Source: Betaproteobacteria bacterium
GTDB lineage: Bacteria > Pseudomonadota > Gammaproteobacteria > Burkholderiales > Eutrophovitaceae
Assembly: GCA_020354125.1 (NCBI GenBank)
Contig: CP070643.1
Span: forward strand, 1,005,848-1,069,847
Direction of reading: 5' to 3'
Length of the DNA: 64,000 nucleotides
Position 1 is the first letter of the stretch; each line of letters starts with the position of its first letter. The notes under the pieces are model-generated. The model saw only the letters and a program-made list of their open reading frames with translations, had not been told where the DNA came from and searched no databases. Positions 1-59,035 of this stretch are shown here, piece after piece. The translations under genes and the position numbers were made by a program.

Positions 1-134
1 ACACGTCTCCGCTGCGTTGTTCGGCTTGTCAATACGACCGGTATTGACTGCATCGGGTCTAATCGAAACGGCCGCCTTGCGGCCATCGTGTTCTGAACGT
101 AACGCATCGTGCGATCGATCATGAGATAGGTTCT
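1..134. mobile_element. End of a MITE-like repeat element (truncated by window edge)
   Basis: This stretch is an inverted copy of 44560-44680, with near-identity interrupted by an extra segment of about 15 bases near position 55-75. It contains a hairpin-forming palindrome at about 29-48 (GTCAATAC and GTATTGAC arms). It ends at 111-134 with a 24-bp terminal sequence that closes in ATGAGATAGGTTCT. The same terminus bounds both ends of the complete copy at 44560-45090. The rest of this copy lies left of the window. No coding sequence is evident. That it is a mobile element is inferred from the shared termini and inverted placement. Confidence 0.6.
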
Positions 135-9947: not shown

Positions 9948-11096
9948 ATGCGGCGAGTAATGATTGCCCGGCGGACAATTTTCGCCACGTTGCTGGCAGG
10001 TTTGCTTGCCGCTTGTGGCGGCTCGAAGGGTCTCGAGCCGTCGCCTTTACCTCAGTTCGAGCCCAAGATCGGTGCGCGCACGGCATGGAAGGCGACGGTC
10101 GGGAAGGCCGGTATTTTCATCTTCTCGCCGGCCCATTCACGGGACATGGTTTGCGCGGCCGGCGGCAACGATCGCCTGTCTTGCTTTTCTTCCGATAACG
10201 GACGACGCATGTGGGTGAGGCGGGCCGGTGTTTCGTTCTCGGGCGGCGTTGGCGGCGGCGAAAACATGCTTCTGGTGGGCAGTTCCAAGGGCGAGGTGCT
10301 GGCATACGACCTGAGTGGGACCCTGTTGTGGCGCTCCCAGGTGTCGACCGAGGTGCTCAGCGCACCGACTGGTTCGCGCTCGATCGTAGTGGTACGCGCC
10401 GGTGACAGCAAGGTGTTCGGATTGAGCGCAAAGGACGGCACACCGCGGTGGGAGTACGAGTCAAATCGGCAGCCGCTGATCCTGCGCTCCAACCCGGGCA
10501 TGGCGATTCTCGACGATACTGCTGTTATCAGCGGATTTCCCGGCGGGCGACTGGTCAAGCTCGACGTGCGCGACGGGGCGCTGCTATGGGATATCGCGGT
10601 CGCAACGCCGCGTGGCGACAATGAGCTGGAGCGGCTCACCGACGTGGCCGGCACGCCGATTCTGGAGAATGGTTGGGTCTGCGCCGTGGCGTTTCAGGGC
10701 CGGATCGGGTGTTTCGATAGCGACAAAGGTGCACAGATCTGGGCTCGCAGTGCGTCGAGCGCCGGCAGCCTGGTAGCGGATACCAGAACCGTCTACTACA
10801 CCGAATCCGATGGCATTGTCGTGGCGCTGGACAAGTCCACCGGTGCCAGCTTGTGGCGGCAGGATCAGCTGCTCTATCGCAAGGTCTCGGCGCCTGTGGT
10901 GGTTGGCGACTGGATTGTCGTTGGTGACTTCGAAGGTTACGTACACGTTCTTTCGCGCGAAGACGGTTCGTTCGTTGCCCAGCTGCCAACTGATGGTAGT
11001 GCCATCGTGGCCGCTCCGCTCGAGGTGAAGAACCGTGCTCTGGTGCAGACGCAGGCGGGCAGCCTGTACATGATTGATCTGCAGAATCGCGGTTAA
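9948..11096 (+). CDS. bamB: Outer membrane assembly lipoprotein BamB
   Basis: BamB is the beta-propeller lipoprotein of the BAM complex that inserts beta-barrel proteins in the outer membrane. The signal peptide RRTIFATLLAGLLAAC ends in a lipobox cysteine, followed by PQQ-like propeller repeats (for example GASLWRQDQLLYRKVSAPV). The ATG at 9948 is chosen over in-frame GTGs in the upstream 18-bp repeat, because those would add a non-signal-like N-terminus (SNTCAVSNTCAV). An ATG at 9960 is also possible. BamA is encoded at 29684. Confidence 0.93.
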   Translation: MRRVMIARRTIFATLLAGLLAACGGSKGLEPSPLPQFEPKIGARTAWKATVGKAGIFIFSPAHSRDMVCAAGGNDRLSCFSSDNGRRMWVRRAGVSFSGGVGGGENMLLVGSSKGEVLAYDLSGTLLWRSQVSTEVLSAPTGSRSIVVVRAGDSKVFGLSAKDGTPRWEYESNRQPLILRSNPGMAILDDTAVISGFPGGRLVKLDVRDGALLWDIAVATPRGDNELERLTDVAGTPILENGWVCAVAFQGRIGCFDSDKGAQIWARSASSAGSLVADTRTVYYTESDGIVVALDKSTGASLWRQDQLLYRKVSAPVVVGDWIVVGDFEGYVHVLSREDGSFVAQLPTDGSAIVAAPLEVKNRALVQTQAGSLYMIDLQNRG

Positions 11097-21440: not shown

Positions 21441-22201
21441 TGTCAGAACCTGCAGCGGTTTACGGCTTTCACGCGGTCACGGCGCGCATCAGGCATCGAC
21501 CGGAATCGGTTCAAGAAATCCTGTTCGACCAAAATCGTCGTGATCCACGCCTGAAACGTCTGCTGGTTGCCGCCAGGGAAAGAGGGTTGCGGGTTAGCAC
21601 CGCCCAGGGCAAGGCGCTTGACGAGGTTGCAGGCAGCCGGCGCCACCAAGGCATCGTGGCTCTGGTCGAAGGCGGGCTCCAGCCGCGCAGCCTGGCCGAT
21701 GTGCTTGAAACCCTGGACGAACCGGCATTGCTACTGGTTCTCGACGGAGTTCAGGATCCGCATAACCTTGGTGCGTGCTTGCGTGTGGCTGATGCGCTTG
21801 GCGCCCACGCTGTGGTGGCACCCAAGGACCGGGCGGTCGGACTCACGCCAACCGTTGAAAAGGTCGCTTCAGGTGCCGCGCAAACGGTGCCATATGTTGT
21901 GGTGACCAATCTGGTACGTGAACTGAAGGCAATGAACGAAGCCGGCATCTGGACCGTCGGTGCGTCTCAGGGCGCGCCACTCCCGTTGGTCAGTTGCGAC
22001 CTGAAACGGCCGGTGGCTTTGGTGCTTGGCGCCGAAGGCGAGGGGTTACGGCAGTTGACGCGCAAAACCTGTGATGAACTGGTGGCGATTCCGATGAGTG
22101 GAACGGTCGAGAGCCTCAATGTCTCGGTCGCAGCCGGCATTTGCCTATATGAGGCAAGGCGCCAGCGACAGGTCGAGGAGACCGCCAGCGCGAAGTCGTA
22201 A
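21440..22201 (+). CDS. rlmB: 23S rRNA (guanosine-2251-2'-O)-methyltransferase
   Basis: This SpoU-family trefoil-knot methyltransferase 2'-O-methylates G2251 in the ribosomal P-loop. The substrate-binding N-domain (VYGFHAVTARIRHRPESV) is followed by motif 1 DGVQDPHNLGACLRVADALG, motif 2 LVLGAEGEGL and motif 3 IPMSGTVESLNVSVAAGICLYE. Length is 253. It overlaps rnr by one base and closes the hfq-to-rlmB block. Confidence 0.96.
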   Translation: MSEPAAVYGFHAVTARIRHRPESVQEILFDQNRRDPRLKRLLVAARERGLRVSTAQGKALDEVAGSRRHQGIVALVEGGLQPRSLADVLETLDEPALLLVLDGVQDPHNLGACLRVADALGAHAVVAPKDRAVGLTPTVEKVASGAAQTVPYVVVTNLVRELKAMNEAGIWTVGASQGAPLPLVSCDLKRPVALVLGAEGEGLRQLTRKTCDELVAIPMSGTVESLNVSVAAGICLYEARRQRQVEETASAKS

Positions 22202-37633: not shown

Positions 37634-40045
37634 ATGACCAAAGCAGCGATGAGCGATGAGCGTTATGTGATCTCCTTTGAAGAACTGCGTATGACCGACG
37701 TGGAACAGGTCGGTGGCAAAAACGCGTCTTTGGGAGAGATGATTACGCAGCTGTCCAGTGTTGGTGTACGGGTTCCGGGCGGCTTTGCCACCACAGCCGC
37801 GGCCTTTCGGGATTTCCTGAACGAATCGGGTCTGACGGCAAAGATCGACCAGTCACTAGACGCGCTCGATACAGAGGATCTGGAAGCGCTGACCGAGACT
37901 GGCAAGCGTATTCGGCAATGGATCATTGATGCGCCGCTGACGCCTCGCTTGCAGAAGGATATCAGTGAGGCTTATGCGTCTTTGGTGAATGGCGAAGACG
38001 ACGACATGTCATTCGCAGTGCGGTCTTCGGCCACCGCCGAAGACCTTCCGGACGCTTCTTTTGCTGGTCAGCAGGAGACCTATCTCAACATTCATGGCCT
38101 CGATAACGTACTCGAGGCAATCAAGCAGGTGTTTGCCTCGCTGTATAACGATCGGGCTATTTCGTATCGCGTGCACAAGGGGTTCAAACACGCCGATGTA
38201 GCGCTGTCGGCAGGCGTGCAGCGCATGGTTCGCTCCGACATCGGTGCGTCCGGCGTGATGTTCACGCTCGATACCGAATCCGGCTTCGATAAGGTGGTGC
38301 TCATTACGTCTGCCTATGGGCTTGGCGAAACAGTGGTGCAGGGCCAGGTCAATCCGGACGAGTTCTATGTTTACAAGCCGGGTCTGGAAGCTGGTAAACC
38401 GGCGATTTTGCGTCGCACTCTTGGCAGCAAGGCGTTGCGAATGGAATTCGCGGAACACAAGACGGCCGGGCTTTCTACGCGAACCGTTGACGTGCCCGAG
38501 GCGGACCGCGATCGTTTCTCAATTAGCGACGCCGAAGTCGAAGAACTCGCGCGCCATGCGGTGGGCATAGAGAAGCATTACGGCCGTGCCATGGATATCG
38601 AGTGGGGGCGCGATGGCAAGGATGGCAAGCTCTATGTCCTGCAGGCGCGTCCCGAGACGGTCAAGACCCAGGAAGACGATACTGCGGTTCAGGAGCGATT
38701 TCGGCTCAAGCGCCGTGGCGACGTAATGGTCGAGGGCCGGGCGATCGGCAACAAGATAGGAACTGGCACGGTGCGGCTGGTCAAGGATGCCTCCGAGATG
38801 CATCGCGTGCTTGCCGGTGACATTCTCGTTACTGATATGACCGACCCGGACTGGGAGCCGGTGATGAAAAAGGCGGCGGCTATCGTGACCAACCGTGGTG
38901 GGCGCACCTGTCATGCTGCCATCATTGCGCGTGAACTCGGCATTCCCGCCGTCGTTGGTACCGGCAATGGGACCGAGGCTCTGTCCGAGGGAGCGCGCGT
39001 GACCGTTTCATGCGCCGAGGGTGACACCGGTTTTGTCTACCAGGGTATTCTTGACGTCGAAGTACTGCACCTGGAATTGGACAAGCTGCCGGATATTCCA
39101 GTCAAGATCGGTATGAATGTCGGCAATCCGGAACTTGCCTTTGATTTTCAGAGGCTGCCCAACGAAGGCGTCGGGCTGGCCAGGCTGGAGTTCATCATTG
39201 CGCGCATGATCGGCGTGCACCCGAAAGCCGCTTTGGCCTACCCGAAGCTGCCCGCGAAGACCAAGGAAGCTGTTGAACTGCATTCACGTGGCTATCCTGA
39301 TCCGGTCGCATTCTATGTTGACAAACTTTCCGAAGGGGTGGCCACGCTGGGCGCGGCATTCTTCCCGAAGCCGGTGATCGTTCGCATGTCCGACTTCAAG
39401 TCCAACGAGTATTCACGGCTTATTGGCGGCGAATTATATGAACCGGAAGAAGAGAATCCGATGCTCGGTTTTCGTGGTGCCTCGCGTTACATTGCCGAAA
39501 GTTTCCACGACTGTTTTCAACTCGAGTGTCGCGCTCTCAAGCGGGTGCGGGACGACATGGGGCTGACCAACGTCGAGATCATGGTGCCGTTCGTTCGTAC
39601 CGTCGATGAGGCTCGCCAGGTGATAGAACTGCTGGCACGGCACGGCCTGGAGCGTGGCAAGAACGGATTGCGGGTCGTCATGATGTGCGAGATTCCTTCA
39701 AACGCCTTGCTGGCCGACGAGTTTCTGCAGTATTTCGACGGTTTTTCGATTGGTTCCAACGACATGACTCAGTTGACGCTGGGGCTTGACCGGGACTCTG
39801 GCATCGTCGCCGGCCAGTTCGATGAGCGCGATCCCGCCGTCAAAAGGATGCTGCACCTTGCTATCGATGCCTGCCGGCGTCACAACAAGTATGTCGGCAT
39901 TTGTGGCCAAGGACCTTCCGACCATCCGGATCTGGCGGAATGGCTGGCCGATGAGGGTATCGGGACGATTTCGCTCAATCCGGATACGGTGGTTGACACC
40001 TGGCTCTACCTTGGCAAGCATTTGGCATCGAAGGCGGCGGCCTGA
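37634..40045 (+). CDS. ppsA: Phosphoenolpyruvate synthase
   Basis: PpsA converts pyruvate and ATP to PEP, AMP and Pi for gluconeogenesis. The N-terminal ATP-grasp domain ([36 protein letters not shown]) is followed by the swivelling phosphohistidine domain ([21 protein letters not shown]). The C-terminal TIM barrel has a PEP-binding region ([21 protein letters not shown]) and the CGQGPSD cysteine. Length is 803. The ATG at 37634 is used. Gluconeogenic PEP supply fits growth on C1 or acetate-like substrates, but that is inference. Confidence 0.96.
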
Positions 40046-40047
40046 GG

Positions 40048-40315
40048 TAGGGCCTGATAACGCAATCCAATCCATGCGTTGCCCCCAAAATGCAGCGAGG
40101 CAAGGCGCGAGGATTGCAGTTTGGGCAGCCCAAATAAAAGACGAGCAACACAGCATGGCTGCATTTTGGGAGTTAACCCGTAGGGACGGGGCCGCTTTGG
40201 CACGATCCCGCGTTACAGCTCGCTTATGTGGACTAGCCACAACGCGCTCGCAGCGCCTTGCCTTGCACCAAAGCTGCCACCGTCGCATTGATCGGATATG
40301 CGTTATCAGGCCCTA
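40048..40315. mobile_element. 268-bp MITE-like element with perfect 17-bp inverted ends
   Basis: TAGGGCCTGATAACGCA at 40048-40064 is repeated in perfect inverted form at 40299-40315, and weaker matches continue another 14 bases inward. The terminal TA pairs could be a TA target duplication, as in IS630/mariner-type elements. A nested pair (CCCAAAATGCAGC near 40084 and GCTGCATTTTGGG near 40159) adds secondary structure. It starts 3 bases after the ppsA stop, and no gene is supported inside. With 40316-40416 it makes up the ppsA-pyrG gap. Confidence 0.65.
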
Positions 40316-40374: not shown

Positions 40375-42229
<1,855 letters not shown>

Positions 42230-42233
<4 letters not shown>

Positions 42234-42379
42234 ACCTGTGTGGTTTTGACGTAGGGCTTGAGCATCCGGTTTTCCTGATTGCAGGCGCGCGTCGGAGGGT
42301 TGAGCAGGGGCCCCGTGGCACACGGGGATGCGACCGTGCAGACGCGCAAAGGGCCCAGCAAGAGGACAACGTTGTATGA
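42230..42379 (+). CDS. Mini-ORF B: second truncated duplicate of the KdsA N-terminus
   Basis: This frame starts with GTG and encodes [18 protein letters not shown], then an Arg-rich segment from the palindromic module, 49 residues in all, the same length as mini-ORF A. CAGGAGAAATTGC upstream gives an AGGAG at a plausible distance from the GTG. Its TGA overlaps the kdsA ATG (ATGA), so kdsA could be translationally coupled to it. As with mini-ORF A, the catalytic barrel is missing. Function, if any, would be regulatory or leader-like. Confidence 0.5.
42302..42348 (+). repeat. GC-rich palindromic module, copy 2
   Basis: This copy is identical to 42156-42202 and sits 146 bases downstream, within mini-ORF B. 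It ends 27 bases before the kdsA ATG, so its hairpin could affect kdsA translation. Confidence 0.75.
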
Positions 42380-43224
42380 ACTTGTGCAATTTCGAAGTGG
42401 GCTTAGACCGCCCCTTGTTCGTGATTGCCGGGCCCTGCGTTATTGAATCGCGCGAACTGGTTTTTGATGTCGCCGGCCAGATGAAGGAGCTGACCGAGTC
42501 GATCGGCATTCCCTATATTTTCAAGGCATCCTACGACAAGGCGAACCGCAGTTCCGGGACCTCGTTCCGTGGCATCGGGATGGACAAGGGTCTGGAGATA
42601 CTGCGAGCAGTCCGCGAAGAACTCGGCATTCCGGTGTTGACCGATGTGCACACTGAAGATGAAGTCGCCGCCGTTGCACAGGCTGTGGACGTGCTGCAAA
42701 CGCCGGCCTTTTTGTGTCGTCAGACCGATTTCATCCGTGCCGTCGCCTCCGCGGGAAAACCGGTCAACATCAAGAAGGGCCAGTTTCTGTCGCCGCATGA
42801 GATGAAGAATGTGGTCGATAAGGCACGCGAGGCGAGCGGGCAGGACAACATCATGGTGTGCGAGCGGGGCGCATCGTTCGGCTATAACAACTTGATCTCG
42901 GACATGCGCTCGCTTGCGATCATGCGTGAAACCGGCTGCCCGGTCGTGTTCGACGCAACGCACTCGGTGCAGTTGCCAGGCGGGCAGGGCGGAGCGAGCG
43001 GCGGACAGCGAGAGTTCGTACCTGTTCTGGCACGCGCTGCGGTTGCCAGCGGCGTGGCCGGCGTGTTCATGGAAACCCATCCGAACCCCGAGCGGGCACT
43101 TTCCGATGGCCCCAACGCGTGGCCGCTCAAGTACATGAAGCCAATGCTGGAAACGCTCAGGACGATCGATGAGACAGTAAAACAGCGTGGCTTCGAGGAG
43201 AATTTGGTCACTGCGAGCGAATAA
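42376..43224 (+). CDS. kdsA: 3-deoxy-D-manno-octulosonate 8-phosphate synthase
   Basis: KdsA condenses PEP with arabinose 5-phosphate to form Kdo8P for LPS inner core. [39 protein letters not shown] and [16 protein letters not shown] are conserved. Length is 282. The start is the ATG at 42376; the frame runs upstream through the duplicated unit but homology starts here. AGAGGA lies 10 to 15 bases upstream. Two truncated tandem copies of its own 5' end separate it from pyrG, where the genes are normally adjacent. Confidence 0.96.
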
Positions 43225-43270: not shown

Positions 43271-45090
<1,820 letters not shown>

Positions 45091-48731: not shown

Positions 48732-51545
48732 ATGACCTCGGATACGGATCGCCCCGCGAATTCAAACGGAGTCGAGTTTCGGCTCAACGAGGCGGTAGTG
48801 CATGCCGAATCAGGCGAAACGATACTCCAGGCCGCGCTGCGTAACGGAGTGCAGATTCCCCATCTCTGTTACAAACCGGGGTACCGCGCCGACGGCAACT
48901 GTCGAGCGTGCATGGTGGAAATCGATGGCGAGCGGGTGCTGGCCCCGGCGTGCTGTCGACGGCCGGTTGAAGGTATGCGAGTAAGAAGCAACAGCGAGCG
49001 GGCCGAGCGCTCGCAGCGACTGGTTCTGGAATTAATGCTCTCCGACATGCCGGACAAGCGCTATACGCATGACTCGGAACTGGACCAGTGGGCCGGCAGG
49101 TTGCGGCTCGGCAAGCGGCGTTTTGCGCCGCGCGAGGGGATGGCAGCCGATATCTCGCATCCGGCGATAGCGGTCAACCTTGATGCCTGCATTCAGTGCA
49201 CCCGCTGCGTTCGCGCCTGTCGCGAAGAGCAGATGAATGACGTGATTGGTTACGCGTTTCGCGGTGACCAATCGAAAGTCGTGTTCGACTTTGACGATCC
49301 GATGGGTGACTCGTCCTGCGTCGCCTGCGGCGAGTGTGTGCAGGCTTGCCCCACGGGAGCACTGATGCCGGCACGCGAGGTGGCCTTAGAAGAAGTTGAT
49401 CGCGAAGTTGACTCGGTCTGCCCGTATTGCGGTGTCGGCTGTCAGATTACTTATCACGTGAGGAATAACCGCATCCAGTGGGTCGAAGGCCGCGACGGGC
49501 CAGCGAACCGCGGTCGATTGTGTGTCAAGGGACGCTATGGCTTTGACTACGTGCATCACAAACACAGGTTGACCACACCGTTGATTCGCAAGCCTGGCGC
49601 GGCGAAGGATGCTAATGCCGCGATGGACCCGGAAAAATTCCATCAGGTCTTTCGCAAGGCGAGCTGGGAAGAAGCGCTGAACCTTGCCGCCGACAGGCTG
49701 CGCGAGATACGCGATAGCGTCGGCAACAAGGCGCTGGCAGGATTCGGATCGGCCAAATGCAGTAACGAAGAAGCTTATCTGTTCCAGAAACTGGTACGCA
49801 CCGGGTTTGGATCCAACAACGTCGACCATTGTACGCGGTTGTGTCACGCGTCGTCGGTTGCTGCATTGCTCGAGGGCATTGGGTCGGGCGCGGTATCGAA
49901 TCAGGTGAGCGACGTGCTCAAAGCCGAGGTGATCCTGGTCATCGGCTCCAACACCACGAGCAATCATCCAGTGGCCGCAACCTGGATGAAAAACGCTGCC
50001 GCAGCGGGGGCGACGCTGATCGTATGTGATCCGCACCGCTCGGACCTGGCCCGCCACGCATCGCACTACTTGCAGTTCAAGCCCGACACCGACGTTGCGC
50101 TGCTCAACGCGATGCTAAATGTTATTGTCGAAGAAGACTTGGTCGACGAGCAGTTCGTTGAGCAACGCACCAGCAACTTTGAGGCGCTGCGTCATAACGT
50201 CAAAAGCTACAGTCCTGAGGCGATGGCGCCAGAGTGCGGTATTCCGGCAGACACTATTCGCAACATCGCCCGTTTGTACGCAACGTCAAGAGCGTCGATG
50301 ATTTTTTGGGGGATGGGGATTTCGCAGCATGTGCATGGCACAGATAACGCTCGCTGCTTGATTGCCCTGGCACTGGCCACTGGGCAAATCGGCCGCCCGG
50401 GCACCGGCTTGCATCCGTTACGCGGTCAGAACAATGTCCAGGGTGCCTCTGATGCCGGACTGATTCCGATGGTGTTTCCAGATTACCAGCGCGTCGACAA
50501 TCCCCAGGCACACACGCGGTTCGAGAAATTATGGAATACCGAACTGGACAATGCGCCGGGACTGACAGTAGTAGAAATCATCGACGCCGCGCACAATGGT
50601 GACATCAAAGCAATGTACATCATGGGCGAAAATCCGGCGATGTCGGACCCTGACCTGAACCATGCGCGTGCTGCGTTGGCCAATCTCGATTGGCTGGTGG
50701 TGCAGGATATCTTCCTGACCGAGACGGCTTATCTGGCCGACGTCGTGCTGCCGGCCACCGCTTGGCCGGAAAAGAGCGGCACTGTGACCAATACCGATCG
50801 CATGGTTCAGTTAGGGCATCAGGCATTGCAACCACCAGGCGAGGCGCGGCCCGATCTGGAGCTGATACAAGAGATAGCGCGCCGGTTAGGTCTGGATTGG
50901 CACTACTCGGGACCGCACGAGGTGTTCGAAGAGATGCGCCAAGCGATGCCATCAATCGGCGGTATCACCTGGCAGCGTCTGGAGAAAGAGTACTCGGTCA
51001 CTTATCCATGCGAAAACGAGGGCGACCCGGGCAGTCCGGTCGTGTTTGCCGACCGTTTTCCAACCGCCGACGGGCGTGGCAAATTTGTTCCAGCGGGCAT
51101 CATTCCCGCGGCGGAGCATCCGGACCGTGAATACCCGATGGTACTGATCACCGGAAGGCAGCTCGAGCACTGGCATACCGGCGCTATCACACGAAGATCC
51201 GGCGTGCTGGACGCGATCGAGCCTGAGCCGACTGCACTAATGCATCCGCTCGACCTCGATATGCTCAACGTCAGGCCGGGTGAAGTTGTAACCGTCTCAT
51301 CGCGCCGCGGCAGCATCTCACTGTATGCGCGCGCTGATGATGGCACACCGCCGGGAACGGTTGTCATTGCCTTTGCCTACCACGAAGCGGCGGCGAACAA
51401 GCTGACTAATCCCGCACTTGACCCGTTTGGCAAGATTCCCGAGTTCAAATATTGCGCTATTAGGGTCACCAAGGGTGGCAAACCGCCTTCGCCTGGCAGC
51501 TTTGGCGGTGGAAAGACCGCTCAGGACATGCTCGTAAAGTTGTAG
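48732..51545 (+). CDS. fdsA: NAD-dependent formate dehydrogenase alpha subunit (Mo/W-bisMGD)
   Basis: This is the catalytic subunit oxidising formate to CO2 in the cytoplasm. The N-terminal [2Fe-2S] ferredoxin domain has its ligands around CYKPGYRADGNCRACM (46-60) and at C74. Two [4Fe-4S] motifs follow (CIQCTRCVRAC at 153-163, CVACGECVQAC at 196-206). The molybdopterin domain has its own [4Fe-4S] (CPYCGVGC at 230-237). The metal-ligand position is Cys371 in TRLCHASSVA, followed by the usual His, so no selenocysteine is needed. Length is 937. No separate small FdsD subunit or FdsC is found next to it. Confidence 0.92.
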   Translation: MTSDTDRPANSNGVEFRLNEAVVHAESGETILQAALRNGVQIPHLCYKPGYRADGNCRACMVEIDGERVLAPACCRRPVEGMRVRSNSERAERSQRLVLELMLSDMPDKRYTHDSELDQWAGRLRLGKRRFAPREGMAADISHPAIAVNLDACIQCTRCVRACREEQMNDVIGYAFRGDQSKVVFDFDDPMGDSSCVACGECVQACPTGALMPAREVALEEVDREVDSVCPYCGVGCQITYHVRNNRIQWVEGRDGPANRGRLCVKGRYGFDYVHHKHRLTTPLIRKPGAAKDANAAMDPEKFHQVFRKASWEEALNLAADRLREIRDSVGNKALAGFGSAKCSNEEAYLFQKLVRTGFGSNNVDHCTRLCHASSVAALLEGIGSGAVSNQVSDVLKAEVILVIGSNTTSNHPVAATWMKNAAAAGATLIVCDPHRSDLARHASHYLQFKPDTDVALLNAMLNVIVEEDLVDEQFVEQRTSNFEALRHNVKSYSPEAMAPECGIPADTIRNIARLYATSRASMIFWGMGISQHVHGTDNARCLIALALATGQIGRPGTGLHPLRGQNNVQGASDAGLIPMVFPDYQRVDNPQAHTRFEKLWNTELDNAPGLTVVEIIDAAHNGDIKAMYIMGENPAMSDPDLNHARAALANLDWLVVQDIFLTETAYLADVVLPATAWPEKSGTVTNTDRMVQLGHQALQPPGEARPDLELIQEIARRLGLDWHYSGPHEVFEEMRQAMPSIGGITWQRLEKEYSVTYPCENEGDPGSPVVFADRFPTADGRGKFVPAGIIPAAEHPDREYPMVLITGRQLEHWHTGAITRRSGVLDAIEPEPTALMHPLDLDMLNVRPGEVVTVSSRRGSISLYARADDGTPPGTVVIAFAYHEAAANKLTNPALDPFGKIPEFKYCAIRVTKGGKPPSPGSFGGGKTAQDMLVKL

Positions 51546-56914: not shown

Positions 56915-59035
56915 ATGCAAGGCAAAACCGGCGGCAAGACAATCAAGTTGTGTAGCTGCAACAAGACCATGTCGGTCGATGCCGCGGCACTAGGCAAGGC
57001 GCTTGAGTTTGGCGGACCACTCAAGGTCCACGACGCATTGTGTCGTCGCCAGGCGGGCGTGTTTGCCGAATCGCTGAACGATCCGGATGTGGTTGTCGCC
57101 TGCACTCAGGAAGCGCAGTTGTTCTCCGAGATTGCTGATGAACAAGGCTCGGATGCTGGCCTGCGTTTTGTCAACGTGCGCGAGGCGGCTGGTTGGTCAG
57201 CCGAAAAGGATCGGGTGACACCAAAAATAGCTGCGCTGCTCGCTGCCGCAAGCCTGCCCGAGCCTGAGCCGGTCGCATCAGTCGATTATGAATCGGCCGG
57301 CGAGATCCTCATTATCGGTCCGTCAGCCGTGGCACTCGACTGGGCCCGCAGGCTTTCCGATGGCAGCGTTGCTCAGCTCAATGTCAGCGTGTTGATGACC
57401 CGAAGTGAAGGCGGGGAGTTGCCGGTCGACCGCAACTTCCCCGTGTGGTCGGGCGTGCCAGTGCGTGTATCCGGCTTCCTCGGCGCCTTCGATGTGGAGT
57501 GGAAGCAGGACAACCCCATCGACCTTGATATTTGCACGCGCTGCAATGCCTGTATCGACCGGTGCCCCGAGGGTGCAATTGATTTTCTCTACCAGATTGA
57601 TCCTGACCGATGTAATAGCCATCGGCGCTGCGTCGACGCGTGCGCGCATATCGGTGCCATTGATTTCGAGCGCGGCGAGCGCACCAGACGAGAGCACTTC
57701 GATCTGGTGTTCGATCTTTCCGCGCAGCCGTTGATCCGTTTGCCGGACCTTCCGCAAGGATATGCCGCGCCCGGCAACGATCCGCTCGAACAGGCACTGG
57801 CTGCGGCGCGTTTGTCTCAATTGGTCGGTGAGTTCGAGAAGCCGCGCTTTACCGCATACCGGGACAACATCTGTGCGCACGCACACTCGGGACGCAGCGG
57901 ATGCACTCGATGCATTGACGTGTGCTCGACAGGTGCCATAACCAGCATTGGTGAGCATGTCAGCGTCAATGCGCACGTGTGTGCCGGTTGCGGTGGCTGC
58001 GCAACGGTCTGTCCCTCAGGGGCGATGCGCTACGAATACGCGCGCATGCCTGATGTCGGCACCCGGTTAAAGGCAATGCTATCGACCTACCAGAAGGCCG
58101 GTGGCGAGAATGTCTGCCTGCTGTTGCACGATTTGGAGGATGGTGCTGGCCTGATTGCCAACGTTGGGCGTCATGCGGTGCGCGGGGGCAGGGGATTGCC
58201 GTCACGGACGATACCGCTCGGCGTCTTTCATGTGGCATCGGTTGGCATCGACACGCTGCTTGGCGCAATTGCATATGGCGCCAGTCAGGTCCTGGTGTTG
58301 TCCGGCAATTGCCGTTCCGAGGCCTATCAGGACGCGATCGAAACGCAGATGAAAGTAGCGCAGGCCATTTTGAGCGGGCTTGGCTTTGGCGGCGCGCATT
58401 TCAGGCTGCTGCGAAACGAGGACGCAACGAGTCTAGAGCAAACATTGTGGGAAATCGCACCGGCGATGACGGTTGCCGAGCCCGCCAGCTTCAACTTCTC
58501 GCCGGAAAAGCGCACGACCCTGGATTTCGCGATCAATCACCTCGCGCAGCATGCTCCGCAAAGCAAAGACCAAATCGCTTTGCCAGGCGGAGCGCCGTTT
58601 GGCAAGGTTTCAGTGGATCGCGACAAGTGCACCATGTGCATGGCGTGCGTCGGGTCGTGTCCGGCCGCCGCGCTTCAGGACTCACCGCAGCTGCCGCAAC
58701 TTCGCTTCATCGAACGCAACTGCATCCAATGTGGATTGTGTGCCAATACCTGTCCCGAAGAAGCGATCAGCCTGCAGCCGCGATTGCTGTTAACCGCAGA
58801 TGCAAGGTTACCAGTGGTGTTGAACGAAGCCGAACCGTTCGAATGCATTCATTGTGGCAAGCCGTTTGGTTCGCGCCGGATGGTCGACAATATGCTTGCG
58901 AGGCTCGAGCAGCACTCGATGTTCTCGGCAGAGGGTGCACTCAAGCGTCTGCGAATGTGTGCCGAGTGTCGCGTTGTCGACATGGTCGAGTCAACTGAAG
59001 AGCCATCGATTTTTGACTATACGAAACACAAATGA
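56915..59035 (+). CDS. Multi-[4Fe-4S] polyferredoxin of the formate dehydrogenase operon
   Basis: This 706-residue cytoplasmic iron-sulfur protein has cysteine motifs at about 207-218 (CTRCNACIDRC), 232-242, 330-337 (CTRCIDVC), 356-366 (CAGCGGCATVC), 572-582 (CTMCMACVGSC) and 603-613 (CIQCGLCANTC). A CSC pair is near the N-terminus (LCSCNKTM). A middle region (ASQVLVLSGNCRSEAYQ) recalls the MvhD-like delta fold of heterodisulfide reductase systems. The TTG at 56879 is rejected for the ATG at 56915. It is conserved in this operon type; it may donate electrons or clusters for maturation, but its role is not established. Confidence 0.85.
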   Translation: MQGKTGGKTIKLCSCNKTMSVDAAALGKALEFGGPLKVHDALCRRQAGVFAESLNDPDVVVACTQEAQLFSEIADEQGSDAGLRFVNVREAAGWSAEKDRVTPKIAALLAAASLPEPEPVASVDYESAGEILIIGPSAVALDWARRLSDGSVAQLNVSVLMTRSEGGELPVDRNFPVWSGVPVRVSGFLGAFDVEWKQDNPIDLDICTRCNACIDRCPEGAIDFLYQIDPDRCNSHRRCVDACAHIGAIDFERGERTRREHFDLVFDLSAQPLIRLPDLPQGYAAPGNDPLEQALAAARLSQLVGEFEKPRFTAYRDNICAHAHSGRSGCTRCIDVCSTGAITSIGEHVSVNAHVCAGCGGCATVCPSGAMRYEYARMPDVGTRLKAMLSTYQKAGGENVCLLLHDLEDGAGLIANVGRHAVRGGRGLPSRTIPLGVFHVASVGIDTLLGAIAYGASQVLVLSGNCRSEAYQDAIETQMKVAQAILSGLGFGGAHFRLLRNEDATSLEQTLWEIAPAMTVAEPASFNFSPEKRTTLDFAINHLAQHAPQSKDQIALPGGAPFGKVSVDRDKCTMCMACVGSCPAAALQDSPQLPQLRFIERNCIQCGLCANTCPEEAISLQPRLLLTADARLPVVLNEAEPFECIHCGKPFGSRRMVDNMLARLEQHSMFSAEGALKRLRMCAECRVVDMVESTEEPSIFDYTKHK

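Follow-up and report, generated by a model that had tools for sequence, protein, structure and literature searches.

The window analysed here, a stretch of 64,000 nucleotides from a betaproteobacterial genome (G000; one contig, 92.5% complete), carries between ppsA and pyrG a 268-bp segment bounded by perfect inverted repeats, which raises the question of what this segment is, which transposase could have placed it there and whether its predicted fold is of any consequence. Its parts are given below, where R1 denotes a covariance model of the arm module, built from 19 modules.

40048..40315, no strand: the MITE, 268 bp including the TA at either end and 264 bp without them
40048..40064, plus strand: left terminal inverted repeat, TAGGGCCTGATAACGCA, its TA being the putative target duplication
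40299..40315, minus strand: right terminal inverted repeat, the perfect complement of the left one
40084..40170, plus strand: left hairpin arm (predicted fold), with an 18-nt closing stem that is 89% complementary
40094..40159, plus strand: core module, sense on the plus strand (R1, 70.8 bits; this copy is among the 19 modules building R1)
40177..40185, no strand: central CCC-GTA-GGG mini-hairpin between the arms (sequence and predicted fold)
40201..40267, minus strand: core module, sense on the minus strand, an inverted copy of the left module (R1, 73.1 bits; this copy was also used to build R1)

Anatomy and copies of the element

The terminal arms (40048-40064 and 40299-40315) are 17 nt long, 100% complementary and 234 nt apart, and the outer TA is seen at both element ends, as a previous sequence-only reading of this DNA had described. 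By chance, a perfect 17-bp inverted repeat with arms less than 500 bp apart would be expected about 0.002 times per 64 kb at the composition of the window, in which the only exact inverted repeats of at least 13 bp within approximately 500 bp are the element ends, the 40084-40170 pair inside the element and a pair at 50292-50587. The position just behind ppsA was likewise confirmed, as two bases (GG) separate the stop of this ORF (37634-40045) from the element, while 101 bases lie between the element and the ATG of pyrG at 40417. The ORFs overlapping the element are opposite-strand or read-through frames beside ppsA and provide no evidence of genes, its interior contains no recognisable IS remains, and at gathering thresholds a tRNA was the sole Rfam match in the whole window, leaving none at the element. 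Two terminator-like sites were found on the minus strand versus 0.6 expected, with no sigma-70-like promoter alongside them.

Searching with the element matched five places in G000 (seven matches, two of which are the element's own opposite ends), and searching with the end sequence added two copies (remnants at 1390350 and 1211170), giving seven sites in total. The element is short and non-coding, it has perfect or near-perfect terminal inverted repeats and it occurs in several copies at unrelated sites, which bears out the earlier proposal of a non-coding MITE and its expectation of further copies. The ends of the other copies mostly read GGGCCTGTTAACRCA. Of the two added copies, one is internally deleted (122 bp between the end dinucleotides) and the other, of 41 bp, retains little beyond its two ends. 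The flanking sequences of the 122-bp copy also surround a full copy in the same-genus genome G002 (L030 and L018), indicating that this insertion predates the split. G002 is apparently record CP070775.1, a Betaproteobacteria MAG, as matches in the two occupy identical positions. Besides G000, matches were obtained in two of three same-genus genomes, with none in the one that is 71% complete, and a plasmid search using the element gave no match.

Shortened forms of the element comprise four outer-stem remnants of 39-48 bp, in which both arms are gone, and three one-arm forms of 155-184 bp. As a side observation, palindromes of 39-48 bp between the end dinucleotides are found at G000:1211170-1211214, G002:538052-538096, L038 2213-2264 and L043 from 7354, and such tiny palindromes consisting of the outer stem only occur in the genus of the window as well as in Lysobacter.

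The folded core and its occurrence under other ends

Inside the outer stem, alignment of the element halves shows that each carries one copy of a single module, the two copies being in inverted orientation and linked by CCC-NNN-GGG. Viral contigs, a Nitrosospira MAG and two Lysobacter genomes contain same-ended elements of nearly equal size, in many cases with 265 bp separating the TAs (among the 20 stretches taken for comparison, L155, L156 and L158 gave no end pair and others were short forms), and the window copy is approximately 52-57% identical to those of other lineages. The RNAalifold consensus of all 25 elements of 255-300 bp comprises 67 pairs, forming the outer stem and the two arms, with 93% of 1670 cells paired and double-sided changes in 49 of the 67 pairs, compared to 37-41% paired cells and 20-31 pairs with double changes when the partner was slid by 1-3 columns as a control. 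In the module alignment, nine of ten pairs covary. Single-sequence folding predicted two separate arms in 21 of 26 elements with the ends of the window copy, itself included, and the central mini-hairpin in 18 of 26. For the other five, all from the genus of the window, the predicted minimum is one long hairpin in which the arms pair together, as they can do because they are inverted copies; a three-way junction is thus not predicted for every full-length copy. The fold is conserved with compensatory changes and belongs to the element, not to the locus.

The arms also carry mismatches that depend on the strand. Folding was done with G.U disallowed, so that G.T and A.C mismatches were treated alike, and the main test counted 1x1 and 2x2 mismatches in one element per lineage, covering 17 lineages (five with the end type of the window). 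On the module's own strand, the arms of these lineages contained 69 G.A but only 3 C.T mismatches, a direction that holds in 16 of 17 lineages with L437 (0 and 1) as the exception, and the ratio of G.T to A.C was weakly skewed (41:25, p 0.06); the outer stem contained 1 G.A, 3 C.T, 8 G.T and 6 A.C. Counted over all 37 elements, 1x1 and 2x2 mismatches amounted to 99 G.A, 10 C.T, 80 G.T and 49 A.C in the arms and to 3, 7, 20 and 20, respectively, in the outer stem. With 1x1 mismatches only, the G.T to A.C ratios over the 37 elements were 20:5 (left arm), 13:29 (right arm) and 19:17 (outer stem); in this run the motif rule probably assigned the wrong orientation to g0_4000 and g2_8951, which contain an additional linker. 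The strand bias of the arms, which the outer stem lacks, suggests that the arms, and not the ends, behave as if the fold of one strand mattered. Since the modules are homologous, shared mismatches are not independent events, but the paired positions around them change together while the mismatches stay, which speaks for constraint.

In the window's genus, scoring the best 150 candidates per genome with model R1 yielded at least 31 matches, spread over three of four genomes, G000 among them. Assigned by position and by reading of nine loci, 22 of these belong to the family of the window element, seven to a second family and one to a third, while one is a relic without clear ends (L170). The second family is itself present in the window:

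44560..45090, no strand: second MITE family, ends TAGAATCTATCTCA / TGAGATAGGTTCT, an inverted module pair with a longer middle
44608-44674, plus strand, and 44977-45043, minus strand: its modules (R1, 16.6 and 29.2 bits)
1..134, minus strand: part of a further second-family copy at the window start (G000:1005848-1005981)

Because the core module also matches the 44.56-45.09 kb repeat, the window element and this family share a core. The sequence-only reading had taken the element to differ in sequence from the two other families that it noted; this stands for the ends, but not for the core if the 44.56-45.09 kb repeat is one of those families. The ends of the second family read TAGAACCTATCTCA, and it has at least 40 matches in G000, several being halves of one element, with six full-length copies of 267-269 bp. 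Several G000 copies of this family measure 390-680 bp and contain an extra middle part. The third family was observed at L185 1453-1668 (G000), as a 216-bp element with 20-bp perfect ends, TAGTGTGCTGTTCGACAAAT, and one core module of 35.4 bits. Weak matches to the core module were additionally seen in the window at 10567-10617, 56988-57042 and 21603-21658 (11.7-16.8 bits, E 0.045 to 0.82).

Beyond the genus, R1 matched at least 40 of 120 genomes and at least 34 of 79 genera of the order (E up to 0.001), and at least 54 of 299 genomes and 25 of 154 genera of the phylum (E up to 0.0001), these counts being lower bounds because stricter filters were used. Inverted module pairs 106-107 bp apart recur in G074, G055, G125, G035, G036, G054 and G063. 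We folded 11 of 29 order loci (L468-L496), with clear or near-clear ends and a length of 267-276 bp, together with one copy of family 2; these 12 elements have differing terminal repeats, and separate arms were predicted in all 12 and the mini-hairpin in 10. Several other loci in L468-L496 are short forms or have no clear inverted repeat, and the same applies to several wider relatives (L536-L553), of which others carry further GGGYCTGTT-like ends. A two-hairpin core recurring with different ends in other Pseudomonadota is more than a local repeat.

The ends, in turn, do not need this core, as Nitrosospira carries 113-bp elements (L039 2576-2692, L042 and L152) with GGGCCTGTTAACAC-type ends around an unrelated A+T-rich interior without the core. 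Such same-ended elements with another interior fit the view that the core is a passive relic, its palindromic arms being kept paired by DNA repair and template switching and its folded strand having no function. Template switching at the DNA level can also maintain pairing, but it should erase mismatches regardless of strand, whereas in 16 of 17 lineages the G.A mismatches of the arms persist on one strand; the ready loss of the arms in the four 39-48 bp remnants and three 155-184 bp forms and the outer stem without strand bias agree with a relic, while the resemblance between genera and end types in the distance separating the modules and in overall length does not. We consider a passive relic possible, if somewhat doubtful.

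Probable partner transposase and insertion site

Among 24 viral-contig loci with the exact end, L082 was the only IS found by the ends alone. One terminus of this 818-bp element is TAGGGCCTGTTAAC and the other differs from it by one mismatch; DUF4096 (PF13340) and DDE_Tnp_1 (PF01609) are encoded in two frames, without overlap in the present sequence. A search with its transposase matched 1409 plasmid records, and all eight of the places read were annotated as IS5 family or IS5-like. L101 (Pseudomonas aeruginosa plasmid) and L106 (Enterobacter cloacae plasmid), annotated as IS5 family transposases, have GGGCCTGTTAAC at both ends, five of the eight plasmid places have close end variants with TA outside, and L107 is without a match; the plasmid and viral ISs with the same terminal repeats span 809-828 bp. 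In the order, the L101-type transposase was matched in 14 of 120 genomes, and one of 30 loci read, L506, has the ends GGGCCTGTTAACAC and GGGCGTGTTAACAC, with one mismatch at one end. DUF4096 scored above the Pfam cut-off in L506, L511, L518 and L525, which strengthens the case for a partner of this kind. The element thus shares its ends with autonomous IS5/IS427 ISs (L082, L101, L106 and L506), with PF13340 present in L082 and L506. Since the ISs other than L082 were found through its transposase or that of a relative, a search that could not find an IS630 partner, they document such ends in IS427-type elements without establishing that other elements lack them. Judging by this anatomy, the partner of the MITE is most likely an IS5 family, IS427-like (DUF4096 and DDE_Tnp_1) transposase, which the evidence supports well.

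The order also contains IS427-like ISs matching other MITEs with the core, four MITE end types being represented in all, and the remaining 25 of the 30 loci read have other ends or none that are clear. L506 carries the end type of the window-element family; L518 and L527 end in GAACCTATCTCAAA, matching the MITE family 2 end GAACCTATCTCA; the L525 end GGCTCTGTTGACGT is that of MITE L478; and both ends of L511 are GGGTCTGT, one of which continues as GGGTCTGTTAAC, the end type of MITE L496. Only L511 and L496 share a genome (G066), where they lie approximately 21 kb apart on one contig, as L506, L518, L525 and L527 come from order genomes outside the 40 with a core match. Our interpretation is that the core is old and that the IS427-type ends carrying it are exchangeable. 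Viral-contig loci with second- or third-family ends contained no autonomous IS (for the second family, among the matches listed), and no partner IS of the third family was found.

In G000 itself (92.5% complete), neither PF13340 nor the L101 transposase was matched, and nine PF01609 matches are present; G002 has one PF13340 transposase (L100), without these ends nearby. As its host has no PF13340 or L101-type transposase, the window copy is probably immobile now and stranded there.

The sequence-only reading had named an IS630/Tc1-mariner transposase as the partner, on account of the outer TA pairs. TA at both ends is indeed as described in excerpts on RUP and IS630-Spn1 (PMC2229807), but 10 of 11 IS427-group rows in the excerpted table of a Paracoccus study have 2-bp direct repeats as well (PMC3281130), so that TA does not point to IS630, and the autonomous elements found with these ends (apart from L082, by a route that could not find IS630) have IS5/IS427-type transposases. 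Mobilisation of this MITE by an IS630/Tc1-mariner transposase therefore appears very improbable, and this part of the earlier proposal is not supported by the ISs found.

At the ppsA-pyrG site, all four aligned relatives (G001, G002, G003 and G010) are without the element. The flanks of the window copy plus one TA align to G002 ungapped over the 120 columns shown, at 85% identity, which supplies the empty site that had been looked for in a relative; G001, G003 and G010 align less cleanly there (71-74%, gapped). Because G002 reads TG at the window's TA, we infer the duplicated TA from the two element ends and from the family as a whole. Among the genomes compared, this exact insertion is lineage-specific. 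That the segment is instead a cis-regulatory RNA belonging to the ppsA-pyrG locus, as its position between two genes and its strong predicted fold might suggest, is refuted as stated by the four empty sites and is almost certainly wrong, given also the copies at other sites and the lack of an Rfam match at gathering thresholds; single-copy status combined with conservation of an RNA structure at the same locus across other genera, which the sequence-only reading had set against its own proposal, is contradicted by a multi-copy family and the same empty sites.

With the G of the element following the TA, the element end reads TAG, a stop codon. In 26 elements of several families, with g2_8951 left out and only stops in the flanks counted, 11 of 52 element ends lay no more than 12 bp beyond the stop codon of an open frame with 100 codons or more, versus 49 of 2422 directions at other TA sites of the same loci, a control that mixes coding and intergenic TAs. 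Insertion beside stops may thus be tolerated or favoured.

On the other side of pyrG, before kdsA, the start region of kdsA is present three times at 42082-42431, at a spacing of 146 bp; the copies share a 56-nt core that is 75% alike, and the first two are 84% alike over 129 nt. This repeat was not found around pyrG of the same-genus genome G002 (L110 1-3000).

Interpretation and comparison with known systems

In summary, the segment is a genuine MITE whose core is conserved and whose partner is of IS5/IS427 type; its transposition we infer from its anatomy, and its core may have a use of its own. We favour, with a probability of roughly 0.8, that an IS427-like transposase of the IS5 family inserted this non-autonomous MITE, in the lineage of the window, into a TA just 3' of the ppsA stop. 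Its conserved core may owe its retention to folding as a single strand. Such a core might act as folded RNA or as single-stranded DNA. Because the modules are inverted, one of them is always sense, whichever strand is transcribed or exposed at replication, and the element hence presents a sense hairpin whichever way it lands. Behind ppsA, a highly stable structure would then lie within the 3'-terminal part of a ppsA transcript, with the region upstream of pyrG left intact.

A wider reading, which we offer only tentatively, is that a single ancient structured core, built of a pair of inverted hairpin modules about a central mini-hairpin and bearing conserved strand-specific G.A internal loops, has spread in Pseudomonadota under many IS427-type ends. 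Selection would then act on the core, as an RNA or single-stranded DNA part that works in either orientation and aids persistence or acts on host transcripts, and the ends would be swapped to follow the available transposase.

In the literature compared, as far as the parts consulted go, each MITE is treated within a single species and linked to a single IS, and the titles and abstracts of open-licence literature on such MITEs and on Correia elements do not describe this core. One folded core across many genera and several end types makes conservation and end-swapping directly testable. IS5/IS427-type transposons thereby gain a large non-autonomous following, and the module model could annotate intergenic repeats of Pseudomonadota that Rfam does not cover in this window.

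The Correia/NEMIS elements of Neisseria are TA-flanked folded MITEs, and we take their AAGGCG...GCAACGC motif to look similar to that of the window element. A homology of the core to Correia elements, suggested by eye, is not supported by the module model, which gave only 11.1 bits (E 0.77) at one gonococcal copy.

MITEPsy1 of Pseudomonas syringae is, in the excerpts consulted, a non-autonomous element with ends resembling the IS5-family ISPsy2, for which transposition was shown with duplication of the target CTAG or YTAA (PMC3189936). The window element is similar in being non-autonomous and in having IS5-family-type ends. In contrast, MITEPsy1 is 100 bp long with 18-nt ends, no core of two inverted modules is described in those excerpts, and its reported duplication is of 4 nt, whereas only TA is supported for the window element (PMC3189936). 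The IS427 group has two overlapping ORFs and mostly 2-bp direct repeats, according to the excerpted source (PMC3281130). Its ISs, as represented by the 809-828 bp elements found here, have the same terminal repeats as the window MITE but encode a transposase, of which the MITE interior keeps no recognisable IS remains. RUP of Streptococcus pneumoniae, as far as excerpted, is like the window element a small TA-flanked MITE with a proposed partner IS, but this partner is IS630-Spn1, and RUP is 107 bp long with 9-bp ends (PMC2229807).
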